DNA from: Sulfurimonas sp.
Lineage (GTDB): Bacteria; Campylobacterota; Campylobacteria; Campylobacterales; Sulfurimonadaceae
Length of the DNA: 37,821 nucleotides
Direction of reading: 5' to 3'
NCBI RefSeq assembly: GCF_027056685.1
Contig: NZ_JALUKE010000065.1
Span: forward strand, 1-37,821
Part shown: positions 15,386 through 21,257 of the stretch, one piece after another
How positions within the stretch are numbered: position 1 is the stretch's first letter
Layout of the letters: each line of letters starts with the position of its first letter
Made by a program: the position numbers and the translations under genes
Notes under the pieces: generated by a model
Told to the model about the DNA's origin: nothing
Databases searched by the model: none
Seen by the model: only the letters and a program-made list of their open reading frames with translations

Positions 15386-15838
15386 CTATTTCATATACTT
15401 CTGCAAAAACATATTCAACTGATTTGCGAAATGTTCTGCATCTTTTTGTCCAAATGGTTTTGGTCCTTTGGTGCTTTCTCCCATCTCTCGTATGCTCTCC
15501 ATCAGGTTTCGCATCGCCAGATATTGTTTGATGTTGTCTTCACTGTAGAGTTCACCTCTGTGGTCTATGGCGTGGGCATTTTTACTTATGATTCTGTCTG
15601 CTAGTGGGATGTCGGCGGTGATTACCAAGTCACCCTCTTCTACCATCTCTACTATTTTATGGTCAGCTTCATCCGCTCCGGCTTCTACGATGATGTAGTG
15701 GATGTTTGGTGATTTACCTATGTTTATTTTTTTGTTTGCAACTGCGTAGGTTTCTATGATATATTTATCTATTTGACGCAGGACTATAGGCTTTAACAGG
15801 TTAGGAAACGCATCTCCGTCTATGTACATTTTTAACAT
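15386..15838 (-). CDS. UPF0178 (YaiI/YqxD, DUF188) family protein
   Basis: A 150-residue protein of the YaiI/YqxD family, thought from its fold to be PIN-like. Landmarks are MYIDGDAFPN at the start, VEAGADEADHKIVEMVEEGDLVITADIPLADRIISKNAHAIDHRGELY in the middle, and KGPKPFGQKDAEHFANQLNMFL at the end. The conserved acidic residues (Asp7, Asp9 and the TADIPLA Asp) match the family. The biochemical function is not established. It overlaps the patatin gene by 7 bases on the same strand; an alternative start at MYIDGDA (15829) would remove the overlap. Confidence 0.9.
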   Translation of the reverse strand: MLKMYIDGDAFPNLLKPIVLRQIDKYIIETYAVANKKINIGKSPNIHYIIVEAGADEADHKIVEMVEEGDLVITADIPLADRIISKNAHAIDHRGELYSEDNIKQYLAMRNLMESIREMGESTKGPKPFGQKDAEHFANQLNMFLQKYMK

Positions 15839-16599
15839 AAAATCTCTCTCATATCTTCCACTCCAAGGGCATAGGCTTTCTCTAAATCTCTAAAAGAGAA
15901 GATTTTAACATCATTTAGCTTTTCATTACTTAGGTAAAGATGACACAATTCACTTTTTGCGTAATATTGACTCTGCCAAGCAGTATGAATGTTCTTTTTC
16001 AGCCATCCAAAAATACTTTTCGGTATATATCTCTGTTTGGGATGGAGGTTTATTCCTATGATGGGCGTGTTATATTTTCGCAGCTCCTCAACCGGAAAGT
16101 TATCTACCAAGCCACCATCAATATATATCTTGCCATGCAAAGAAACAGGCTGAAAAAGTGGAGCAATAGAGCACGATGCCAAAACAAGCTCTTTAAGATC
16201 CCCTCCACTGCTACAATGCAGTGCTGACTCGTCCGTAACATCACACACACAAATACTCAAAGGAATTGACAACTCTTCAAACGCAGCTCTGTCTATGAGC
16301 TTGTCGATGACCTTTGCAGTATGGTCAATCTTAAAAATGTACCCTTTTGCAAGACTCAGTTTAAAGACACGCCGAAACTCTTTGGACTTCAGTACATCAA
16401 ATATCTCATCAGCACTCCTGCCACACGCCAAAGATGCACCTATTAGCGCGCCAATACTCGTACCGCTAATGGCTTTTATGCCTATGTTATGCTCTTGTAA
16501 AACCGATATTACACCCAAATGGTACGCACCGCGCGCCGCTCCACCAGAGAGGCATAGTGCTACTTCTTTTGGAAACTCACTCTTTTTCATCTCTTTCAA
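15832..16599 (-). CDS. Patatin-like phospholipase (RssA type)
   Basis: A 255-residue patatin-family serine hydrolase with a Ser-Asp dyad. The oxyanion loop is GGAARGAYH (19-27), the nucleophile Ser48 lies in GTSIGAL, and the catalytic Asp161 in YIDGGLVDNFPV. It lacks a signal peptide, so it is likely a cytoplasmic lipid acyl hydrolase like bacterial RssA/YchK. The physiological substrate is unknown. It shares a transcript with the UPF0178 gene downstream and diverges from the DUF808 gene. Confidence 0.88.
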   Translation of the reverse strand: MKEMKKSEFPKEVALCLSGGAARGAYHLGVISVLQEHNIGIKAISGTSIGALIGASLACGRSADEIFDVLKSKEFRRVFKLSLAKGYIFKIDHTAKVIDKLIDRAAFEELSIPLSICVCDVTDESALHCSSGGDLKELVLASCSIAPLFQPVSLHGKIYIDGGLVDNFPVEELRKYNTPIIGINLHPKQRYIPKSIFGWLKKNIHTAWQSQYYAKSELCHLYLSNEKLNDVKIFSFRDLEKAYALGVEDMREILC

Positions 16600-16657
16600 A
16601 CCTTTTTCATTGTCCTAAAGTTTAGCACATCATTACGCTTCATAAGTAAACATTTTA

Positions 16658-16663
16658 TATAAT
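16658..16663 (+). promoter_or_regulatory. Probable -10 box for the DUF808 gene
   Basis: A TATAAT in cattttaTATAATgcaaa, 20 bases before ATG 16684 and followed by a GAGGT ribosome site, lies in the divergent gap with the patatin gene. Confidence 0.5.
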
Positions 16664-16683
16664 GCAAAAAAAGTGAGGTAGCA

Positions 16684-17556
16684 ATGGTAGGTGGAATATT
16701 TGCAATTTTAGACGATATAGCAATGCTTATGGATGACACGGCAGCAGTTACGAAAATATCTGTAAAAAATACCGTGCCACTTTTAGGCGATGATCTCGCA
16801 GTAAACGCAGAAGAAGCTTCAGGCTACAACGCTTCAAGAGAGCTACCCGTTCTTTGGGCAATCACCAAAGGCTCATTTCGTAACAAGCTTATCATTCTGC
16901 CCATTGCTTTCATTCTCAGTGCCATAGCACCTTGGCTTATCTCACCCATTTTAGTACTTGGTGGGTTGTACCTTTCTTTTGAGGGTGCAGAGGTCATTTA
17001 TCACTATCTACACTCAAAGTTCAAAAAAGATGCTCATCACGAAGATAGTGCTAAAAAGCTCACAGAAGAGCAAAAAATAAAATCAGCCATTGTCACAGAC
17101 TTCATTCTATCCATAGAGATTGTAGTCGTTGCTCTTGGAAGCGTGATAGAGCAACCCTTTGTGATGCAGCTTGTCGTCGTCTCATTCATTGCTGTTTTAG
17201 CAACAGTTGGGGTCTATGGCATTGTTGCCCTGCTTGTGCGTATGGATGACATCGGGTACTACATCATTGAAAAAGCAGAAAGAGATTCCCTCAAAGAGAA
17301 GTTTGGCAAACTCCTTGTCACATCCCTGCCAAAGGTCATAAAAGTGCTCTCAGTTGTCGGAACCATTGCGATGCTGCTTGTTGCAGGAAGTCTCATCAGC
17401 CATCATTTAGATTTTATACACCATTTTTACAGCGAATACTTCTCCATGGTACCTATGCTTGCCTTTGATTTTGTATTGGCACTTATTACAGGTGCGATTT
17501 TACTTACATTTATCACGCTTTTTACTCCGATTGTTCCTGAGTCGAGCAATAAATAG
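16684..17556 (+). CDS. DUF808 (YedI-like) inner membrane protein
   Basis: A 290-residue member of the DUF808/YedI family. The N-terminus GGIFAILDDIAMLMDDTAAVTKISVKNTVPLLGDDLAVNAEEASGY is the family hallmark, followed by KGSFRNKLIILP and about five hydrophobic membrane segments (near residues 67-95, 140-160, 165-185, 215-235 and 255-280). The function is unknown. ATG 16684 follows GAGGTAGCA. The last 35 bases overlap, in the opposite direction, a remnant of a TIGR02757 gene, so these two genes were probably convergent neighbours before the downstream cassette arrived. The tail TPIVPESSNK may therefore be shaped by that overlap. Confidence 0.88.
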   Translation: MVGGIFAILDDIAMLMDDTAAVTKISVKNTVPLLGDDLAVNAEEASGYNASRELPVLWAITKGSFRNKLIILPIAFILSAIAPWLISPILVLGGLYLSFEGAEVIYHYLHSKFKKDAHHEDSAKKLTEEQKIKSAIVTDFILSIEIVVVALGSVIEQPFVMQLVVVSFIAVLATVGVYGIVALLVRMDDIGYYIIEKAERDSLKEKFGKLLVTSLPKVIKVLSVVGTIAMLLVAGSLISHHLDFIHHFYSEYFSMVPMLAFDFVLALITGAILLTFITLFTPIVPESSNK

Positions 17557-17596
17557 CAAAGTCGTATTTCAAAGGATTCTCTGTATCAGAACTCTT
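17522..17596 (-). pseudogene. Displaced 3' end of a TIGR02757 gene
   Basis: Read on the minus strand, 25 codons give K-S-S-D-T-E-N-P-L-K-Y-D-F-A-I-Y-C-S-T-Q-E-Q-S-E-stop. The intact TIGR02757 gene 1.7 kb away ends K-S-F-D-G-E-D-P-L-K-Y-D-F-A-L-Y-R-L-G-Q-E-G-L-A-stop, the same number of codons to the stop. In the core 15 positions (S to Y) 11 are identical, and most base changes are transitions. Upstream of the Lys the similarity ends and parE sequence begins. I read it as the host gene's original 3' end, displaced by insertion of the cassette. Confidence 0.75.
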
Positions 17597-17891
17597 TCTT
17601 ATGATATCTGTCTTTCCAATAGTTAGGTTTTCGTTGAAGTTGCATAATAGCTAAAACAATAATTTCTTCACCTCTCTGATAATAAATTATTCCAAATGGG
17701 AAACGATTTGTTAAACATCTTCTTATTTCTCCATCAAGTTTTTGCCAAGCGGTTGGAAATTCTAAAATCCTTTGAATTGTTTTTTGCACTTCATAAGCAA
17801 ACTCTACACCAAGATTTACTTTACATTCTTCATAGTAATCAACTGCAATATTTAACTCAAGTTCAGCATCTGGATGAAATAAATAAGTCAT
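17586..17891 (-). CDS. RelE/ParE-superfamily toxin
   Basis: A 101-residue toxin-like protein of the RelE/ParE fold: FHPDAELELNIAVDYYEECKVNLGVEFAYEVQKTIQRILEFPTAWQKL, then RRCLTNRFPFGIIYYQRGEEIIVLAIMQLQRKPNYW. The pattern of helical hairpin, LTNRFPFGIIY strand and final HxxRxP-like QRKPNYW is closest to ParE-type gyrase toxins, but target prediction is weak. Its ATG directly follows the antitoxin stop (TAAATG). Its stop codon lies inside the displaced TIGR02757 fragment, so its last residues are fixed by the insertion junction. Confidence 0.88.
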   Translation of the reverse strand: MTYLFHPDAELELNIAVDYYEECKVNLGVEFAYEVQKTIQRILEFPTAWQKLDGEIRRCLTNRFPFGIIYYQRGEEIIVLAIMQLQRKPNYWKDRYHKKEF

Positions 17892-18125
17892 TTATGAATT
17901 TAATCTTTTTGCTATTTTTTGAAAAACTTCATTTCCATCAATAAGAGTTATCGAGTTAGTTTCGATATCATTTTTTCTTTTGTTTACTTCCTTTATCCAA
18001 AGCGCATCTATTGAACTATTGGTAGGTGTAATACTCGCTAATATTCTATCAACAATTTTAGTTTTTAAATCTATTGGTAAGAGATTGATTTCATCAAATA
18101 ATTCTTCTTGTTTTAACGCTAACAT
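17892..18125 (-). CDS. Addiction-module antitoxin of the TIGR02574 type
   Basis: A 77-residue protein similar to addiction module components paired with ParE-like toxins: LFDEINLLPIDLKTKIVDRILASITPTNSSIDALWIKEVNKRKNDIETNSITLIDGNEVFQKI. The LPxxxKxxIVDxIL helix and the terminal GxEVFxKI motif are typical. It binds and blocks the partner toxin and probably represses its own promoter. A GGAGGG site and a palindromic TATAAT promoter precede it, and its stop abuts the toxin start. Confidence 0.85.
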   Translation of the reverse strand: MLALKQEELFDEINLLPIDLKTKIVDRILASITPTNSSIDALWIKEVNKRKNDIETNSITLIDGNEVFQKIAKRLNS

Positions 18126-18167
18126 TCAAAACCCTCCTTTTTTAAGGCAACTATTTATTTTTAAAGT

Positions 18168-18185
18168 TATGTGTATTATAACATA
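18168..18185 (-). promoter_or_regulatory. Palindromic promoter/operator of the parE-antitoxin operon
   Basis: TATGT and ACATA arms flank 8 bases containing the minus-strand -10 box TATAAT, 49 bases before the antitoxin ATG. The 18-mer differs at only two positions from the mntA promoter element 2.8 kb away. The placement over the -10 suits autorepression. Confidence 0.55.
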
Positions 18186-18268
18186 TACAACTTCATTGAA
18201 AAGTTTTGGTTTCTAAGTTGAGAAATATTTAAGCCATCCTTGAGGCAAATATTGATTCATGCATTTTG

Positions 18269-19141
18269 TTAGCTTTTAATACTTTCCATATCTTTTAAGC
18301 TTATGCCTTTTGTGCTCTTCCATTCAGTTAAACCATTTGCACTTCTTCCCATAACTATTGCAGCCGCTGCTGATGGGCTATTAAATAAATAGTCACTTGT
18401 AAAAACGAATTTTCCATTTTCTTTAATAATACTTTTATTGTTAATCAATTCTTGTCTTAACTTTTTCCAACCATCTGGATATGAATCAACTGTTGAAGAT
18501 GCGATTTCAGAACCTTTGAGCACAACAAATCCACCTGATGTTTGTTGCCCTTTTGCATTTGCACCTCGCGCAGCCTTGATAAAAAAGTTTGAATTTATTT
18601 TTTTATCATCAATTGACTCCTGAATCAATTCTTCAAAAGCTTTAAATCCCAAAACATTAACAAGCATTTTAATATTTTCAATAAACTCTTCCATTTCTGC
18701 TTGATCAGATTCAGAAATTGAAGGTTGCGTTGGTGTATTACTGTTTTTAACCTCGTAACGATTAATTTTAACTGCGATTTGATGCAACCTATTTTCTAAA
18801 TATTTTATATGAGCTTTATTGAGGTTGTCATCTTTACTTATTAAAACAACTGCTTCATTCCAATAGTCTTTTTCATTAAGATGTTGAGAGAGTCTTTTAA
18901 TAATATTTTCTGCCTCTCCAATATATATAACATCTTTTTCAGATGTTATATCTGGTTTACCAAATAAAAAATATACACCTGTATTTGAAAGTTCTTCTCT
19001 CTTAGCACTATCCTTAATCATATTTCTAGGTAACTTATATGCCTTACCTGTCCAGTTTGAAAGTTCACATGTCATTCTTCCATTTGGGATACCATCTAAT
19101 AAAAATAACTTTATTGTTTTAGCAAATACTTTTCCTCTCAT
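18269..19141 (-). CDS. GIY-YIG nuclease domain protein with DUF4357
   Basis: A 290-residue protein from ATG 19141, chosen because GGAGAATT lies just before it; the track adds 20 weak residues. After an N-terminal strand region (TIKLFLLDGIPNGRMTCELSNWTGKAYKLPR), the GIY-YIG domain shows TGVYFLFG (54-61), VIYIGEAENIIKRLSQH (71-87) and the metal-binding Glu in KYLENRLHQ (about Glu116). A linker leads to C-terminal DUF4357 (GGFVVLKGSEIASS...SPSAAAAIVMGRSANGLTEWKS). Such proteins are scattered accessory genes, often near restriction or defence loci; their biological role is not settled. It sits upstream of the toxin-antitoxin pair inside a cassette at the end of the TIGR02757 gene. Confidence 0.87.
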   Translation of the reverse strand: MRGKVFAKTIKLFLLDGIPNGRMTCELSNWTGKAYKLPRNMIKDSAKREELSNTGVYFLFGKPDITSEKDVIYIGEAENIIKRLSQHLNEKDYWNEAVVLISKDDNLNKAHIKYLENRLHQIAVKINRYEVKNSNTPTQPSISESDQAEMEEFIENIKMLVNVLGFKAFEELIQESIDDKKINSNFFIKAARGANAKGQQTSGGFVVLKGSEIASSTVDSYPDGWKKLRQELINNKSIIKENGKFVFTSDYLFNSPSAAAAIVMGRSANGLTEWKSTKGISLKDMESIKS

Positions 19142-19242
19142 AATTCTCCAATTTAAATATAAGCTCTTTATTAACAAACATTTTACACAAATCAACTCCA
19201 AATAGCAACATTAACCAACGAATTATCCCTCAAACAATATTT

Positions 19243-19986
19243 TCAAGCCAATCCTTCCTGCCCCAAACGATAAAGTGCAAAATCATACTTCAAAGGGTCT
19301 TCCCCGTCGAAACTTTTTAGCGTTTTCGTCAGTTCAAACGCAGCTTCGAGGTCGTAAGTCTTTCTTTTGAGCAGTCCTAAACGCAGCCCTACATGAAAAG
19401 TGTGTGTATCGAGTGGAATTATTAAGTCTGCCTTATTTACGCCACTCCACAGACCCATATCTATGTTGTCTTTTCGTACTACCCAGCGTAAAAACATCAT
19501 CCATCTCTTGAGTGCTCCTGCTCCCTTGCGTTTAGTCGTCACATTTCCCAGTAAAAAGGTGTAGCCTCTTGAGTTGTGAGGATAGAGTTCTCTGAGTCTG
19601 CTTATGAGAGCGTTTAGCCCATCTATTACGCTGCGTTTAGGAGCATAACTCTCTACAAAAACACCTTCAAGTGTTGTCACTGCGTTTAACCTTTTGAGTG
19701 CTATAAAAAGAGCGATGATGTCCTCACTCTTTTGAAATCTGTAGTAGTGATTTTGCAGCGCATTTTGTATCTCTTCATCACTTTTTTGCAGTAGCGAGAA
19801 GTCTAAAGAGTCTAAAAACTTCACAATCTGAGTAACATTGCCATAAGAAAAAAGCGCGCAAATAAGTGCGATATTTGCATCATTGTAGCGTTTGGCGACG
19901 ATGATGGGGTCGAGCTTTTCACTGTTTACTTCATCACTTCTGTTGCGTTTGGAAACTTCAGCGTCAAGCCTTGCTTTTATGCTCAT
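19243..19986 (-). CDS. TIGR02757 (DUF2400) family protein
   Basis: A 247-residue protein of the TIGR02757/DUF2400 family, common in Bacteroidetes and Campylobacterota. Helical, with landmarks YNDANIALICALFSYGNVTQIV near residue 34, KGAGALKRWMMFLRWVVRKDNIDMGLW near 150, IIPLDTHTFHVGLRLGLL and the terminal DGEDPLKYDFALYRLGQ. The LDTHTFHVGLRLGL segment recalls the HhH-GPD DNA glycosylase fold, but catalytic function is unproven. It overlaps rpoN by 4 bases (ATGA), so it ends that operon. A displaced copy of its 3' end lies at about 17.55 kb. It carries four exact AAACGCAG copies. Confidence 0.88.
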   Translation of the reverse strand: MSIKARLDAEVSKRNRSDEVNSEKLDPIIVAKRYNDANIALICALFSYGNVTQIVKFLDSLDFSLLQKSDEEIQNALQNHYYRFQKSEDIIALFIALKRLNAVTTLEGVFVESYAPKRSVIDGLNALISRLRELYPHNSRGYTFLLGNVTTKRKGAGALKRWMMFLRWVVRKDNIDMGLWSGVNKADLIIPLDTHTFHVGLRLGLLKRKTYDLEAAFELTKTLKSFDGEDPLKYDFALYRLGQEGLA

Positions 19987-21257
19987 GTGAGTCCGAGTTT
20001 GTAGAGCTTTTTACGCTCACTTGAACCTGCGATGTTGAGCTGTTTTCTGTACTTTGCGATGGTTCTGCGCACCATTTTTACTTTGAACTTCTCTTGAATA
20101 AGGTCAAGCAGCTTCATATCGCTCAACGGCTTCTCTCTGCTCTCCTCTTTTATAAGTCCAACCAGAAACTCTTTTATGGCTGCGTTTGAGACATCTTCAT
20201 CTATGGCGGTGGTGAAGAACTCCTTCATCGCAAGCACACCTCTATCGCAGGCTATGTATTTGTTGGCAATGGCGCGTGAAATGGTTGAGGGGTTATGCCC
20301 AAACTCATCTGCCAAAGTCTTAAGCGTCAGCGGCATTATCTGCCCGCCTGTAAAGAAGTCGTACTGGTACTCAACTATCATCAGCCCTACTTTGTAGAGC
20401 GTTGCTTTTCGCATATCGAGTGCATCTACAAGCGATTTTGCCTCTTTTATCTTCTCTTTTACAAAGTCGTGCTCCACTCCATAATCTGCATCTATGGTGA
20501 TGTTTGGGTAGTAAGCATCATTGAGTTTTACTTCTATCTGGTTTTCATCATTAAAGTAGATCATCAGGTCAGGTACTATCTGCGCTGACTCCTCTTGGTA
20601 CTCAATGTTTGGCGGGTTTTTAAAAGTAGAGAGAGTATGCATCACCTCTGAAAAGTGCTCATGCGAGGAGTAACTGTGAATGTTTTGCATATCGTTAATG
20701 ATTGCAACTGCCAAAGGGTATGCTGTGTCGCTTATCTCAGAGTTGTCAAGCTGAAACAAAAAGGACTCTGCCAAATCTTTTGCCCCGATGCCAAGTGGTT
20801 CAATGTGCGCAAAACGCAGACGAGTCTTCTCAAAAAAATCAACTTCTATTGCATTTTTTTGACAAAACTCCTCTGTATCTCCCTCATAGTAGCCAAGTTC
20901 ATCAAGGTTTGCTACAACATACTGTGCTATCTTTTGCGAAATGGGTGTCGGAAAGAGTGGAGCTTCAAGCTGTTCATCTAAAACATCGTAGAGTGATTTG
21001 TGAGCAATGGTCAGGGCTTCTATCTGCTCTGTTCGTGAGTTACTTACAGCGCGTGAGATAATTTTGCGCGGTATCTTCTTCTCAAAATCCTCTTCATAGC
21101 CGGACTTTACCTCAATGAGAGGATTTGCTTCAACAAAAGGGCTCATCGCCTCACCCAAATCTGAGAGACTTGAGTGCAAAATAGGAAGCCAATTTCTCAG
21201 CGTGCTCGAGAGCTTGTGTTTGTTCTCTACACTCTGCGTCTGTCTTAGTGCTGCCAT
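19983..21257 (-). CDS. rpoN: RNA polymerase sigma-54 factor RpoN
   Basis: The alternative sigma factor that, with a bEBP activator, drives mid-class flagellar genes in Campylobacterota. The 424 residues show region I (LRQTQSVENKHKLSSTLRNWLPILHSSLSDLGEAM), the acidic and core-binding part (DVLDEQLEAPL..., LDELGYYEG, EPLGIGAKDLAESF), the helix-turn-helix (TLKTLADEFGHNPSTISRAIANKYIACDRG) and the RpoN box VRRTIAKYR at 396-404. It is shorter than E. coli RpoN (477) but like the Campylobacter form. It lies 15 bases after lptB; S4-tsaE-lptB-rpoN is conserved in Campylobacter (from memory). Confidence 0.95.
   Translation of the reverse strand: MAALRQTQSVENKHKLSSTLRNWLPILHSSLSDLGEAMSPFVEANPLIEVKSGYEEDFEKKIPRKIISRAVSNSRTEQIEALTIAHKSLYDVLDEQLEAPLFPTPISQKIAQYVVANLDELGYYEGDTEEFCQKNAIEVDFFEKTRLRFAHIEPLGIGAKDLAESFLFQLDNSEISDTAYPLAVAIINDMQNIHSYSSHEHFSEVMHTLSTFKNPPNIEYQEESAQIVPDLMIYFNDENQIEVKLNDAYYPNITIDADYGVEHDFVKEKIKEAKSLVDALDMRKATLYKVGLMIVEYQYDFFTGGQIMPLTLKTLADEFGHNPSTISRAIANKYIACDRGVLAMKEFFTTAIDEDVSNAAIKEFLVGLIKEESREKPLSDMKLLDLIQEKFKVKMVRRTIAKYRKQLNIAGSSERKKLYKLGLT

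Follow-up and report, generated by a model that had tools for sequence, protein, structure and literature searches.

The window analysed here is a 37,821-nt stretch of Sulfurimonas sp. DNA (contig C65 of the 252-contig, 2.0-Mb draft assembly of genome G000), and the subject of this work is a group of genes lying behind its TIGR02757/DUF2400 gene together with a decayed second copy of the 3' end of that gene. The intact gene (19243..19986, minus strand; 247 aa) matches PF09674 with an E-value of 7.5e-63 and scores above the TIGR02757 cut-off; it is the ancestral neighbour of rpoN, the order DUF2400-RpoN-LptB-TsaE-TrpD being kept in the relatives. Downstream of it, on the same strand, lie a decayed integron leader (19158..19218), a GIY-YIG/DUF4357 gene (18269..19141), an antitoxin gene (17892..18125), a gene of a ParE-family toxin (17586..17891) and the decayed gene end, hereafter the remnant (17522..17596), followed by a DUF808 gene on the plus strand (16684..17556) and a patatin-like gene on the minus strand (15832..16599). 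An earlier examination of the letters alone (the sequence-only reading) had placed only the GIY-YIG/DUF4357 gene and the toxin-antitoxin pair between the two gene ends; both are indeed there, but the leader relic lies there too.

The remnant, detected by sequence match, comprises 75 bases, i.e., the last 24 codons and the stop of DUF2400. It reads KSSDTENPLKYDFAIYCSTQEQSE* on the minus strand (17596..17522), while the intact end (19317..19243, minus strand) reads KSFDGEDPLKYDFALYRLGQEGLA*, so that the direction and the codon count to the stop are the same in both, just as had been claimed from the letters. The signal is held by the first 16 codons, which share 33 of 48 nt with the intact end in the window itself and are closer (39 of 48 nt) to the intact end of G053, a Sulfurimonas sp. 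that is the nearest relative of the window genome among the genomes compared and is termed here the sister species. The last 8 codons match weakly (15 of 27 nt) and lie antisense within the DUF808 reading frame. The DNA match between the remnant and the gene end reached 37.4 bits against 29.7 for the best of 130 control regions taken from other genomes on both strands; the protein match gave 30.8 bits against 25.8 for the best chance match, and the sole higher score (31.6) belongs to a second real case, that of G047. These scores above the controls bear out the diverged partner proposed by the sequence-only reading and confirm that the remnant is a true decayed copy of the DUF2400 end, well above chance.

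A C-terminal probe of DUF2400 was scanned against 135 genomes of the genus, 82 of which were matched, and a second DUF2400 end beside the gene was found in the window and in G047 only. The weak second matches that were opened proved to lie inside unrelated genes, a few other weak ones falling outside those opened. Candidate remnants in G155, G051, G016, G171, G001, G018 and G130 were rejected, their matches falling within ordinary genes or on the strand opposite to such genes, or being otherwise spurious. A real-looking DUF2400 tail-like relic with frame damage was observed in G247, a member of another genus of the same order (C12:25897-25956, locus L244); it sits on a different contig, away from the intact DUF2400 gene of that genome, and was not counted.

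In G047, a 1.9-kb foreign open reading frame (ORF; 552 aa, without a Pfam match, with genus relatives at 36% at best) separates the intact DUF2400 gene from a 48-nt sliver of its 3' end. G030, which is ~92-93% identical to G047 along the locus, and G174 have no insert, DUF2400 being directly followed by a membrane-protein gene, which in G030 is CopD-like by our own reading. On one side the insert adjoins the native stop (GTTTAAA) and on the other the native flank (AAGGGAAATATTT), both flanks being G030-like, and the intact DUF2400 end of G047 differs from that of G030 at 5 of 75 nt (93%), the same as the locus average. At two sites where G030 and the intact end of G047 agree with each other, the sliver agrees with G174 instead, and these sites, the only two informative ones, suggest that the sliver arrived together with the cargo. 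A donor tract from G174 was also considered and rejected, as the flanks of G047 are not closer to G174 than expected. The insert contains no GIY-YIG gene, and its cargo has no integron leader. Because the cargo of the window and that of G047 are unrelated, and G030 and G174 present empty sites for the latter, at least two independent insertions behind DUF2400 have each left a stray 3' end.

For the window lineage, the empty site is present in G127 (L141), in which the patatin-like gene lies 23 nt past the DUF2400 stop. The gap between the two genes amounts to 845 nt in G053 and 2652 nt in the window, where it contains the GIY-YIG gene, the toxin-antitoxin pair, the remnant and DUF808. In G053 (L032, 12626-13436) the gap is occupied by a different antitoxin-like ORF (81 aa, without a Pfam match) and truncated ORFs, and looks as if its cargo had turned over. 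The cargo thus varies from case to case: a GIY-YIG gene with a toxin-antitoxin pair in the window, a different toxin-antitoxin-like gene in G053 and one ORF in G047, so that other cargo at the same site, which the sequence-only reading had advised looking for, does exist. Most relatives have other genes behind DUF2400, the commonest being a CoA-binding gene.

The spacing in G127, G053 and the window shows that the gene originally lying downstream of DUF2400 in this lineage was the patatin-like one, and the empty site is DUF2400 directly followed by patatin, not by DUF808. Since patatin adjoins DUF2400 in G127 and the gap widens in G053 and the window, DUF808 is not an ancestral neighbour of DUF2400 here; it is absent from this place in both G053 and G127, and a search of the relatives' loci for an empty allele with convergent DUF808 and DUF2400 found none. 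These observations speak against the suggestion that DUF808 and TIGR02757 were once convergent neighbours. The cassette-free allele expected along with it was encountered (in G127, and in G030 and G174 for G047), in no instance with DUF808 adjoining DUF2400. The reported overlap of the displaced end with the DUF808 stop is real, and since the last codons and the stop of DUF808 (PF05661, E 4e-90) lie antisense on the remnant, DUF808 stood beside a DUF2400 end at some stage; such an arrangement was seen in no relative. In G139 (L181) a DUF808 gene 57% identical to that of the window lies directly behind DUF2400 on the same strand, which is an independent neighbourship. The nearest relative of the window DUF808 (G059, 77%) is located elsewhere and has a different end.

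The cargo of the window, a recent acquisition, is headed, directly upstream of the GIY-YIG gene, by a 61-nt segment that, judging from its alignment, represents the integron leader of this clade in decayed form, consisting of a cassette promoter and an attI-like site (GTT-AATAAAGAG|CTTATA). It aligned to the beginning of contig C133, from the same genome, with a score of 40, as compared with 15.0 +- 2.4 for the null and 19 for the next best place in the window. The C133 leader (L112, 10-71) aligns, in turn, to the intI leaders of G000 (contig C56), G053 and G127, all three of which encode IntI; in the window genome intI is on another contig (C56:383-1393, 79% identical to the intI of G046). 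Next to intI, the clade leader is composed of the promoter, then GTTGAATAAATAG|TT, then the cassettes, and in the window copy the attI core has lost one base and is altered at other points. As the decayed leader with its promoter and attI heads the cargo, an integron is the most likely source: the cargo was probably derived from it, though not by a standard cassette insertion that is still visible. In the window insert, the G053 gap and the G047 insert, no local match above background to the attC sites of G000, G053 and G127 was found, a comparison that does not cover strongly diverged folds. Leader copies thus occur at three places in G000, i.e., beside intI (C56, L281), in C133, where the leader precedes a BrnT/BrnA pair beside the fba 3' end, and in decayed form behind DUF2400. 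A decayed intI with several stop codons was observed in G047 (C1:671209-672125; L273, L274), ~26 kb from DUF2400, while its sister G030 gave no intI match.

The explanation that we consider best, with a probability of roughly 0.5, is that cargo of integron origin became attached behind DUF2400 through recombination assisted by microhomology or homology, which left a 3'-end scar. The DUF2400-patatin gap would then be a place where small foreign genes accumulate in this lineage, and the cargo, i.e., a candidate defence gene of the PDC-S14 family and the ParE-type toxin-antitoxin pair, would have come from the integron of the clade. Joining may have proceeded by recombination of the RecA or microhomology type, e.g., by homology-facilitated illegitimate recombination (HFIR) in the course of DNA uptake, or by a single crossover of a small circle; the same or an earlier event would have placed a second DUF2400 3' end beyond the cargo, where decay then set in, and an independent event of the same kind, with a different gene, would have taken place in G047. 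Such are the route, the order of events and the immediate source that we infer. Joints of HFIR are reported to have 3-10 bp of microhomology, with about 1 kb inserted (PMC3240628), and the left joint of the window insert, between the leader and the 34 nt that follow the DUF2400 stop and are common to G053, has a short similarity of ~7 nt, noticed by inspection (TTGGTTA in the window against TTTGTTA in both G053 and the C133 leader), whereas the right joint is decayed. The likeness to HFIR consists in short foreign DNA being joined to the chromosome beside homologous sequence; in HFIR, however, a similar length of the chromosome is normally deleted, while the G047 insert lacks a deletion, and a homologous anchor may or may not have been used here. 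The same mechanism has been invoked for orphaned 3' regions (PMC5361080), that is, for displaced effector ends and orphan immunity genes of the type VI secretion system and Rhs, where a module likewise arrives behind a conserved part and the old 3' end is kept downstream; there the gene end is variable and selected, whereas DUF2400 is a conserved housekeeping gene to which the cargo is unrelated.

Several facts weigh against this explanation. There are two cases only, and their slivers start within a few codons of each other in DUF2400, a closeness that chance alone would not demand; G047 lacks the deletion that usually accompanies homology-facilitated events; and the leader, the single trace of an integron origin of the cargo, is 61 nt long and decayed, with no attC left. 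The assemblies are drafts, and the sequences compared are short and decayed. Nevertheless, the evidence points to ordinary recombination rather than to a new kind of mobile element. In the parts of the literature covered by our search, no report of DUF2400 as an insertion site was found. The locus provides a polarised and dated example, with an empty site, an occupied site and a scar, of the way in which genes of the defence and toxin-antitoxin kinds become established behind a core gene that stays unharmed, in a group possessing integrons whose cassettes also occur outside the array.

Among the other explanations, a partial tandem duplication of the DUF2400 end, between the copies of which the cargo was inserted later, is unlikely. 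The window remnant most resembles the DUF2400 end found in its own clade, which speaks for such a duplication, but the agreement of the G047 sliver with G174 makes the latter unlike a recent copy of its own end, and no genome with the duplication and without the cargo was met in the 135-genome scan. Slightly less likely is an action of IntI from elsewhere in the genome, by which a chance attG site in the DUF2400 3' end would have been joined to a cassette site, and a circle with the DUF2400 end and the cargo would have been re-inserted, displacing the resident end. IntI is encoded in G000, G053 and G127 and persists in decayed form in G047, the leader relic heads the window cargo, the slivers start in attI-like G|TT contexts (ATAAGAAAGAG|TTCTG in the window and CTAATTAAAGAG|TTTGAC in G047), and IntI insertion at genomic attG sites has been described (PMC12901181). 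Yet no clade-like attC was detected in the window insert, the G053 gap or the G047 insert, the G|TT triplet occurs often in AT-rich sequence, decay has blurred the precise point at which the window remnant starts, and the G047 cargo has no leader. The resemblance to attG insertion outside the array (PMC12901181) comprises the type of cargo (toxin-antitoxin, single defence gene), the IntI in the genome and the leader relic, while the missing attC sets the present cases apart, as does the host gene end carried along, which attG insertions are not known to have. That such circles, carrying the DUF2400 3' end and integron cargo, account for the full mechanism by inserting, restoring the gene and pushing the old end downstream, with cargo thus loaded behind an unbroken housekeeping gene, is still more doubtful. 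Proof of the integron route would reveal a way for cassettes to get into the ends of genes together with a copy that repairs the end.

A classical site-specific element that integrates at a site within the 3' end of DUF2400, supplies a replacement end and has lost its tyrosine recombinase ranks between these last two versions and is quite unlikely. Genomic islands in the 3' ends of genes have a tyrosine recombinase and a replaced 3' end. Their topology, with an intact gene, cargo and an old 3' end in the same orientation, is that observed here, and both slivers start in the same gene stretch (K-x-F-D codons). Against this, eleven integrases of the genus, searched with phmmer against 1,325 ORFs from ~155 loci downstream of DUF2400 (many of them identical contigs from two collections), gave no tyrosine-recombinase match; the cargoes of the window and G047 share nothing, there being no boundary sequence or core common to both cases; and the intact ends are native-like. 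In G047 the end is as similar to G030 as the locus, and in the window it shares with G053 the unusual terminus GLA* and the 34 nt after the stop (19209..19242, minus strand), which are absent from G127 (the blastn match to L032 of G053 ends at 19209). Of the element envisaged by the sequence-only reading, the foreign insertion with its stray end therefore stands, given the G047 parallel and the empty sites; the replacement end does not, and the survey lends no support to a lost enzyme. Some enzyme encoded at another place in the genome may have acted, since the integron integrase is encoded elsewhere and its leader is in the cargo, though attC is missing.

Finally, the idea that the GIY-YIG nuclease cut the site and drove the insertion in a homing-like manner is highly improbable. 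Its domain does adjoin the junction, but the G047 case has no GIY-YIG gene, and the protein is a full-length match (residues 17-306, E 1.9e-122) to the PADLOC defence candidate PDC-S14, with relatives at 36-39% on plasmids of unrelated bacteria, some of them listed beside restriction subunits. The gene (PF14267, E 3.4e-22; PF01541, E 4.8e-4, just under the cut-off) encodes 290 aa from the ATG at 19141, a start picked by inspection, the longest ORF beginning at TTG 19201. Owing to its absence from the G047 insert and the full PDC-S14 match, it is better seen as cargo, a predicted single-gene defence candidate, than as the driver.

An Rfam search of positions 16500-20000 matched no RNA family, and a 30-nt direct repeat (16638/19166), tried as terminal repeats of the 2.6-kb insert, was at chance level. 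The antitoxin belongs to Unstab_antitox (putative addiction module component; PF09720, E 3.2e-10), and the ParE-family toxin matches PF05016 at the cut-off, its final codons (KKEF*) being supplied by the remnant. A second copy of the pair, 82% identical, is found in contig C88 of the same genome, where the toxin ends NYWKKRK*. Since the place of this copy is empty in G053, the toxin-antitoxin pair is mobile too. The C88 pair (L103, about 1436-1994) forms a 559-bp insert between two convergent genes, its toxin has a 34-nt deletion, and the empty site in G053 suggests a possible 6-bp duplication.

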